Source of the DNA: a virus | Strand: one strand, 5' to 3' | Length of the DNA stretch: 21,757 bases | IMG/VR virus record: IMGVR_UViG_3300031227_002617 | Span: 1-21,757 of that record | Part shown: one piece after another, positions 789-4,795 of the stretch | Layout of the letters: each line of letters begins with the position of its first letter | Numbering within the stretch: position 1 is the stretch's first letter | The notes under the pieces: generated by a model | Database searches by the model: none | Seen by the model: the letters and a program-made list of their open reading frames with translations, nothing else | What the model was told of the DNA's origin: nothing | Translations under genes and position numbers: made by a program

Positions 789-1004
789 TTGCCGAGGCTC
801 GAGCAGACCCAGCTTGGATAGCAGGCTTTAAATGCTATGTATAAGGGGTTCTTATGGACACCTCAGCTCGTCCCACGAGTAGTCCAAAGAAAGGCGAACG
901 TAAATGTTGAACGCCAAGCGGTGGCACTATCGCAAGTTTCAACAGCTCTTACCCAATGAAAGGGAATCTAAGAGTGCTATCCTTCAATCATCGAATATCG
1001 GCGA
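789..1004 (+). ncRNA. Candidate large multi-branched RNA 3 with pseudoknot, unknown family
   Basis: No credible gene lies in this 216-base stretch, but many helices nest consistently. P1: 789-795/998-1004. P2: 816-823/975-982, eight perfect pairs (GGATAGCA/TGCTATCC). Hairpins: 841-845/851-855; 866-871/875-880 inside 856-859/882-885; 918-923/928-933; 946-951/969-974 with 952-954/962-964. GGCG (893-896) with CGCC (912-915) crosses TGTTGAA (905-911) with TTCAACA (938-944), a sterically feasible H-type pseudoknot with abutting helices and a hairpin in its third loop. G-U pairs in P1, 866-880 and 918-933 make sense only on the plus strand. An alternative local hairpin, 818-823/833-838, competes with P2. 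I found no signature of tmRNA, RNase P RNA, group I intron, SRP RNA or tRNA. No terminator follows directly. Confidence 0.5.
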
Positions 1005-3249: not shown

Positions 3250-4795
3250 ATGGCTTGACTCTGCTGCAACAGCGCAACGGGTTGAAGTCACGAGCAAAGA
3301 TTTTTTGATTTTCTTTTCGTATTATTTCAGGCATTACGTCAAAGCACCTTTTGCAGATTTCCATTATGAAATGGGGCAGGATATCCACGATTTGGTTGGC
3401 GGTAAGATTAAGGAGCTAGGGTGGTTTCAGTTTCGTGAGTCGGCTAAGACTTCACTAGGTAAAGGAATATTGATTTGGAATATCGCACATCGCAAATTCG
3501 AATACATGAACGTTGACTCTCACGATAAGAGTAACTCTGGAAGATTTCTGTTCGATGTTGTTTTGGAACTTCAAACAAATAAGAGACTTAAACGAGATTA
3601 TGGCGAATTGTTTAATACAAAACGCCGGGAGGAAGAACGCACGCAAAAAAGTATCACAGACTTTCTAACTTCAAACGGTGTACGTGTCGAAGCCCATTCA
3701 ACCCAAGAACCTGTTCGTGGTAGGTTGCACGGCTCAATTCGCCCGCAGTTTGTAATCATGGATGATTTTGAAGATATGGGAACGGTGCGCTCAGAAGCTG
3801 CGACAAGACAAGTGCGCGAACATATAGCAGAATTTAAAGGTGGACTTGATCAGGCATGTGGCCGTGTATTGTATCTTGGTAATCACTTATCAGAAGCCGG
3901 CACGGTTCAATCAATCATCGACCGGTCAAAAAATGACCCATCTGTCAGAGTACGCAAGGTTTGGATTATTGGTGACGACGGTAAGCCTTCATGGCCTCAA
4001 AAACACGTCCTCACAGACGATGAAGCCAAAGCAACGGGCAAAATATCCATTGAAGAGATTAAACGCCGTATGCACACGCCAGAGGCTGGTGACGCTGATT
4101 TTATGCGTGAAATGATGGGTACACCTTTTGACCCGAAACTAGCGAAATTCAATCGTTCTATGTTTAGGGATGTATCCCGGGAAGAGGTGGACGATAAAGA
4201 CACGGCTTGTTACTTAACCATCGACCCTCCCGGTCAGGCTTACACAGAGGCTTCGATAAGGCGTGGTGAGGGTGATTTCGTTGGATATGCGCTGATCAAA
4301 GTAACGATTGAGGGTAAATGGATGGTTGAATGTTGGAGAGCTCGAAATACACCAAAGGAAATGATAGATAATATCTTTTCTATTTGGTCAACTGAATCAG
4401 TGATTAAAATTGGGATTGAGGATACACAGTTTTGGCAAGGACTTAAAGACCAAGTTAAGGACGAAGAATCCCGGCGCGGAGTGCGATTGACCATCGTTGA
4501 GTTGAAACATACAGCTCGCGCTTCAAAGAAAGACCGCATACTCACATTACAACCAAGATATGCTGAGGGTAAGATTTGGCATGTAGCCGGACGTTGTAAT
4601 GATTTAGAAGTGGAGTTATTGCGTTTTCCAATAGCTGAACACGATGACGCGAGTGATTCTCTAGCCATGGGGAACGAAATCGCGGAACGTCCACGACAAC
4701 AAATTAGCCAAGTTGTTCATAGTAAAGCGACGACAAATGCCTATCGATACGGCTCAGCGCGTAACCAAGCTATTCGCAGCGGGGCTGATTCGTGA
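3221..4795 (+). CDS. terL: Terminase large subunit (packaging ATPase-nuclease)
   Basis: A 524-aa motor protein that pumps and cuts phage DNA at the portal. The N-terminal ATPase shows a Walker A-like loop FRESAKTSLG (71-80), with Ala in place of the usual Gly before the Lys, and a Walker B FVIMDDFED (177-185), where D181/D182 stand at the metal/catalytic position. A motif-III-like stretch RVLYLGNHLSEAG (215-227) follows. The C-terminal RNase H-type nuclease has acidic clusters at CYLTIDPPG (330-338, D335), GIEDTQFW (398-405) and HDDASDSLAMG (474-484), the three metal-binding positions expected of this domain. Length is normal for the family. The start at 3221 lies inside the small-subunit gene; no later Met is plausible because the next falls at residue 51. 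The stop TGA sits within GTGA, just before the portal gene. Confidence 0.92.
   Translation: MEIITYEKIKWLDSAATAQRVEVTSKDFLIFFSYYFRHYVKAPFADFHYEMGQDIHDLVGGKIKELGWFQFRESAKTSLGKGILIWNIAHRKFEYMNVDSHDKSNSGRFLFDVVLELQTNKRLKRDYGELFNTKRREEERTQKSITDFLTSNGVRVEAHSTQEPVRGRLHGSIRPQFVIMDDFEDMGTVRSEAATRQVREHIAEFKGGLDQACGRVLYLGNHLSEAGTVQSIIDRSKNDPSVRVRKVWIIGDDGKPSWPQKHVLTDDEAKATGKISIEEIKRRMHTPEAGDADFMREMMGTPFDPKLAKFNRSMFRDVSREEVDDKDTACYLTIDPPGQAYTEASIRRGEGDFVGYALIKVTIEGKWMVECWRARNTPKEMIDNIFSIWSTESVIKIGIEDTQFWQGLKDQVKDEESRRGVRLTIVELKHTARASKKDRILTLQPRYAEGKIWHVAGRCNDLEVELLRFPIAEHDDASDSLAMGNEIAERPRQQISQVVHSKATTNAYRYGSARNQAIRSGADS

Follow-up and report, generated by a model that had tools for sequence, protein, structure and literature searches.

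The window, by which we mean the whole 21.8-kb virus record analysed here, contains a control region between a set of left-hand genes and a rightward operon for packaging and structural proteins, and the element under study is situated in this region (Table 1). The operon product listed as a putative HNH protein was named from its sequence. No reading frame longer than 44 amino acids was found inside the element, for which a previous sequence-only reading had named a conserved frame as contrary evidence.

Table 1. Coordinates of the genes, promoters and predicted RNA parts in the control region of the window, with counterparts in the related locus L003.
Feature	Position	Strand	Details
Zinc-ribbon gene	184-339	minus	left of the element
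Small gene	382-546	plus	left of the element
Candidate -10 box TATACT, weak -35	708-713	plus	sequence reading; putative start ~718-720
5' hairpin GTTATA GCAC TATAAC	718-733	plus	L003 3562-3579
Helix H1, 5' arm	740-747	plus	inverted repeat; imperfect extension from 729; L003 3580-3597
Hairpin HP2	748-788	plus	fold; 3 bp, 2x2 internal loop, 6+6 bp, 5-nt loop, then U6; L003 3598-3632
Helix H2a, 5' arm (outer stem of the sequence-only reading)	789-795	plus	pairs with 998-1004; crosses H1
Helix H2b, 5' arm	799-802	plus	pairs with 991-994
Small hairpin	811-827	plus	811-814/824-827; H2c arm in loop
Helix H2c, 5' arm	816-823	plus	inverted repeat; L003 3696-3707
Helix H1, 3' arm	837-844	plus	inverted repeat; L003 3732-3749
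Hairpin HP3	851-889	plus	851-853/887-889, 855-859/882-886, 866-871/875-880
H-type pseudoknot of the sequence-only reading	893-944	plus	893-896/912-915 and 905-911/938-944; hairpin 918-923/928-933 in loop; without comparative support
Hairpin HP5	946-974	plus	946-951/969-974, 952-954/962-964
Helix H2c, 3' arm	975-982	plus	inverted repeat; L003 3796-3807
Helices H2b and H2a, 3' arms	991-1004	plus	
Operon promoter TTGATT-17-TATAAT	1062-1090	plus	rightward; directly downstream of the element
Rightward operon	from 1150	plus	ParB-like DNA methylase, putative HNH protein, small terminase candidate, large terminase, portal, capsid

A multi-branched structured RNA had been proposed at 789-1004 from the sequence alone. 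All pairings of that proposal are present, including the long stem H2c (a perfect 8 bp), the outer stem H2a (7 bp, one G-U pair) and the two crossing helices of the H-type pseudoknot, and they are mutually compatible, the whole model of 94 pairs (9 of them G-U) being drawable without conflict. The preference for the plus strand was reproduced as well, as the minus-strand fold of 789-1004 was weaker (z = -0.80 versus -1.68). Comparison with shuffled sequences was less favourable: the fold of this interval (-63.2 kcal/mol), whose z of -1.68 refers to the nested fold only, was equalled by 10 of 200 shuffles and is thus barely better than chance. The proposed boundaries had to be abandoned. In a sliding fold scan of the plus strand the strongest signal appeared upstream, at 651-850 (z from -3 to -4, about -4 for 651-800), which argues for a start of the element near 718 and an extent of ~718-1004 or beyond, that is, ~0.3 kb. 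Helix H1, overlooked in the sequence-only reading, crosses both of its long-range stems, which belong to the H2 side of the structure. H1 and H2c are the only perfect long-range inverted repeats of at least 8 bp within 735-1045, and since they cross each other, together they would constitute a pseudoknot. A 13-bp outer stem (716-728/1051-1063) was left out of the RNA model, being made of GTTATAG copies that are also DNA-operator-like. On the whole, these data support a structured plus-strand RNA.

Queries of viral contigs with the terminase, portal and capsid sequences retrieved only the loci L002 and L003, plus distant phages without the element; a search with a 19-nt pattern of the RNA returned L002 only, and phage GenBank records yielded no relative of the RNA. 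The comparison set therefore comprises three sequences, two of which (the window and L002) are 99% identical, so that the number of independent sequences in the collections searched is two. Over 738-1299, L002 is 99.1% identical to the window, with five substitutions, all within 806-829; all 94 model pairs are kept in it, and one pair is changed on both sides (G812-C826 to A-T).

L003 encodes a large terminase 72% identical to that of the window. Its zinc-ribbon gene matches that of the window in position and orientation and is followed by a ~0.4-kb non-coding stretch that folds very strongly (z = -5.1). Alignment of the two elements was no better than that of shuffles, for which reason two apparent common motifs (CTTAT-GAC and AAAGAA-GGCG) were dropped. 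What the window and L003 have in common is the order of parts: 5' hairpin, 5' arm of H1, an abutting terminator-like hairpin, 5' arm of H2, 3' arm of H1 and 3' arm of H2. The long repeats of L003 (16 of 18 bp in H1, 12 bp in H2) cross in the same order as those of the window and by far exceed what chance would give in 441 bases; in both loci the hairpin follows the 5' arm of H1 without a spacer, its stem is interrupted by a 2x2 internal loop, and its terminal loop is U-rich and five bases long. The search for related phages suggested in the sequence-only reading was successful as regards the helix order, which recurs at the same place, and unsuccessful as regards the sequence, which is unalignable.

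A descriptor combining H1, the hairpin and the crossing H2 was absent from all 5000 dinucleotide shuffles made of either region (window and L003); within 522 kb of loci, searched on both strands, it matched the window, L002 and L003 alone. It was devised after the window and L003 sequences had been viewed, and these counts overstate the case. A looser descriptor was set aside, its matches being scattered at the background rate. A blind covariance model of the H1-HP2 part of the window neither placed the L003 element in register nor found others. Judging from the sequences of both loci, the architecture is likely common to them, and a layout retained at an equivalent site despite the divergence suggests a conserved, so far unnamed regulatory RNA next to the early/late switch of this uncultured phage.

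The region might also function without any long RNA, as regulatory DNA with operator palindromes, promoters and the terminator of a ~68-nt RNA, the pairings and the likeness to L003 being incidental. At the DNA level the 5' hairpin is an operator-like palindrome (GTTATAG-CA-CTATAAC), and L003 carries a 20-bp palindrome, CTTTTGGTAAATACCAAAAG (3860-3879), and four TGCGTA motifs clustered within 200 bases around its promoters (3545-3747), all of which are likely operator sites by their sequence. The z value of only -1.7, the lack of significant sequence similarity between the two elements and the negative covariance-model test are consistent with such an explanation as well. It would, however, leave to coincidence that the only two perfect long-range repeats of the window cross like the pair in L003, that the latter are far above chance, and that the descriptor was absent from all shuffles, and we regard it as unlikely.

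Assignment to a known class of RNA found little ground. The claim that the RNA is unlike known families holds as far as Rfam reaches, since Rfam 15 gave only chance-level matches, with nothing above the gathering score and nothing at permissive thresholds either on a 511-base stretch or on L003. Neither the window nor any of six related loci contained a tmRNA or tRNA that ARAGORN could detect, in accordance with the sequence-only reading. According to PMC12286853, GOLLD and ROOL are phage-encoded, multi-helix, pseudoknotted RNAs without a known protein product, features in which the present element resembles them. This likeness might mean that the element belongs, as a divergent representative overlooked by the models, to one of the established classes (tmRNA, RNase P RNA, group I intron, GOLLD or ROOL). 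The element differs from GOLLD and ROOL in matching no Rfam model, in its size of ~0.3 kb only, far below that of GOLLD, many members of which exceed 800 nt (PMC12286853), in its location outside a tRNA island and in the lack of a conserved sequence core; it also includes a terminator-like hairpin, none of which is described for these RNAs in the available text of PMC12286853. We therefore consider membership in a known class very improbable.

The candidate upstream promoter of the window is weaker than the consensus tandem sigma-70 promoters of L003 (at 3499 and 3527; TTGACA-17-TATACT and TTGACA-17-TATAAT), with the start placed at ~3562. HP2 and the L003 hairpin each end ~68 nt after the putative start, which in L003 rests on the promoters and in the window on the weak -10 box together with the hairpin. 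HP2 has the composition of an intrinsic terminator, i.e., a stable GC-containing hairpin followed by a U tract (-16.3 kcal/mol, U6), and is the best of 72 terminator-like hairpins in the 21.7-kb window; a simple terminator scan overlooked it, probably owing to its mismatch. The L003 hairpin, followed by U4, ranks third of 36 in its 17.6-kb locus. At the 3' end of the element no terminator was found in the window or in L003, and no plus-strand terminator-like hairpins were found between the window element and the operon. L003 has an extended -10 box, TGCTATAAT, at the same relative place as the operon promoter of the window.

We prefer to read the element as an attenuated, structured untranslated leader of the operon for packaging and structural proteins to its right, rather than as an independent trans-acting RNA, and estimate the probability of the leader reading at roughly 0.4. 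The rightward transcript would start near 718 in the divergent control region, and the nascent RNA would form the short 5' hairpin, then the 5' arm of H1 and then HP2, which may act as an intrinsic terminator ~68 nt past the start and release a short RNA. Polymerase passing HP2, probably under phage control, would make the remaining leader; H1 could then close, and H2 could form across it as a pseudoknot, which may matter for read-through or stability. As no terminator follows the element, transcription would presumably run on into the methylase, HNH, terminase, portal and capsid genes. Of this scheme, the helices, the recurrence of the part order in another phage, the resemblance of HP2 to a terminator and the missing 3' terminator come from the computations. 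Since in both phages a separate promoter just past the element apparently serves the operon, the leader would not be needed for operon expression. The weak upstream promoter in the window, the post hoc descriptor, the covariance-model miss and the marginal nested fold all argue against the leader reading.

A separate operon promoter just past the element, seen in the window and apparently in L003 too, would suit an independent, structured RNA that acts in trans. Such an RNA would be ~0.3 kb long, have its own promoter and a processed 3' end, be separate from the operon and act as a scaffold or in a protein complex, e.g., with the neighbouring zinc-ribbon protein, whose gene is the sole close neighbour common to both phages. 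The strong tandem promoters in L003 and the many compatible helices with a pseudoknot are also in line with this possibility. Nevertheless, the element includes a terminator-like hairpin, lacks a 3' terminator in both phages and shows no conserved primary-sequence core despite 72% terminase identity, an uncommon situation for a functional RNA machine, and we find an independent RNA of this kind somewhat unlikely. The position next to a packaging operon, mentioned in the sequence-only reading, fits an operon leader or attenuator better than an ornate, free-standing RNA.

In phage lambda, late control at pR'-tR' involves the 6S RNA and Q antitermination, and phage HK022 possesses put leader RNAs. 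The leader reading would make the present locus analogous to these systems, with a control-region promoter, an early terminator nearby, an untranslated structured stretch and then the packaging and structural genes. The differences are that no Q-like gene or put-like sequence was identified here, that neither system is known to include a pseudoknotted fold of 0.3 kb, and that a second promoter follows this element. We consider it doubtful that the loci represent a new family of phage RNAs whose pseudoknotted architecture (a 5' hairpin, H1, a terminator-like hairpin abutting it and the crossing H2) is conserved while the sequences are no longer alignable, and which controls the packaging-operon switch. 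Should the common architecture be genuine, it would represent a control RNA conserved in structure only within a phage lineage, a cultured member of which was looked for and not found; it would also give a concrete example of RNA-based late-gene control outside the lambdoid phages. If the element is merely a leader with a terminator, it would belong to ordinary phage regulation.

In a more distant locus, L012 (CAIZLB010000006.1), a row of phage-like genes, among them one for a terminase of 46% identity, lies beside bacterial genes in a genome of ~0.8 Mb. Terminase relatives, distant except for L012, were present in 38 of 380 sampled small (0.5-2.0 Mb) genomes of uncultured bacteria of the same phylum, and the strict descriptor was absent from twenty regions around distant terminase matches in genomes of this phylum. 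These sequence matches give a hint, though only a hint, that small-genome bacteria may host this phage group.

Several minor observations concern the surroundings of the element. Of the 13 differences between the window and L002, five fall in the 24 bases (806-829 in the window, 69-92 in L002) that flank the unchanged H2c arm. Further downstream (562-1451 in L002, 1299-3079 in the window), the methylase and HNH genes and the start of the small-terminase gene are exchanged for unrelated DNA in L002, the small-terminase start of L002 resembling that of L003; on comparison of the records, this replacement is a mosaic exchange inside the operon. The minus strand of the window contains a candidate small RNA of ~90 nt at 530-657, with no gene between its promoter (TTGACA-17-TAAAAT, 657-629) and its intrinsic terminator AGCTCACTATGTGGGCTTTTTTATT (552-536). 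A second minus-strand promoter (TTGACT-17-TACAAT, 187-159) within 1-187 precedes a non-coding stretch with a folding signal (1-160, z = -2.3), which continues past the contig end; on the minus strand of L003 (2970-3280), a promoter and strong folding (z = -3.5) occupy the same place.
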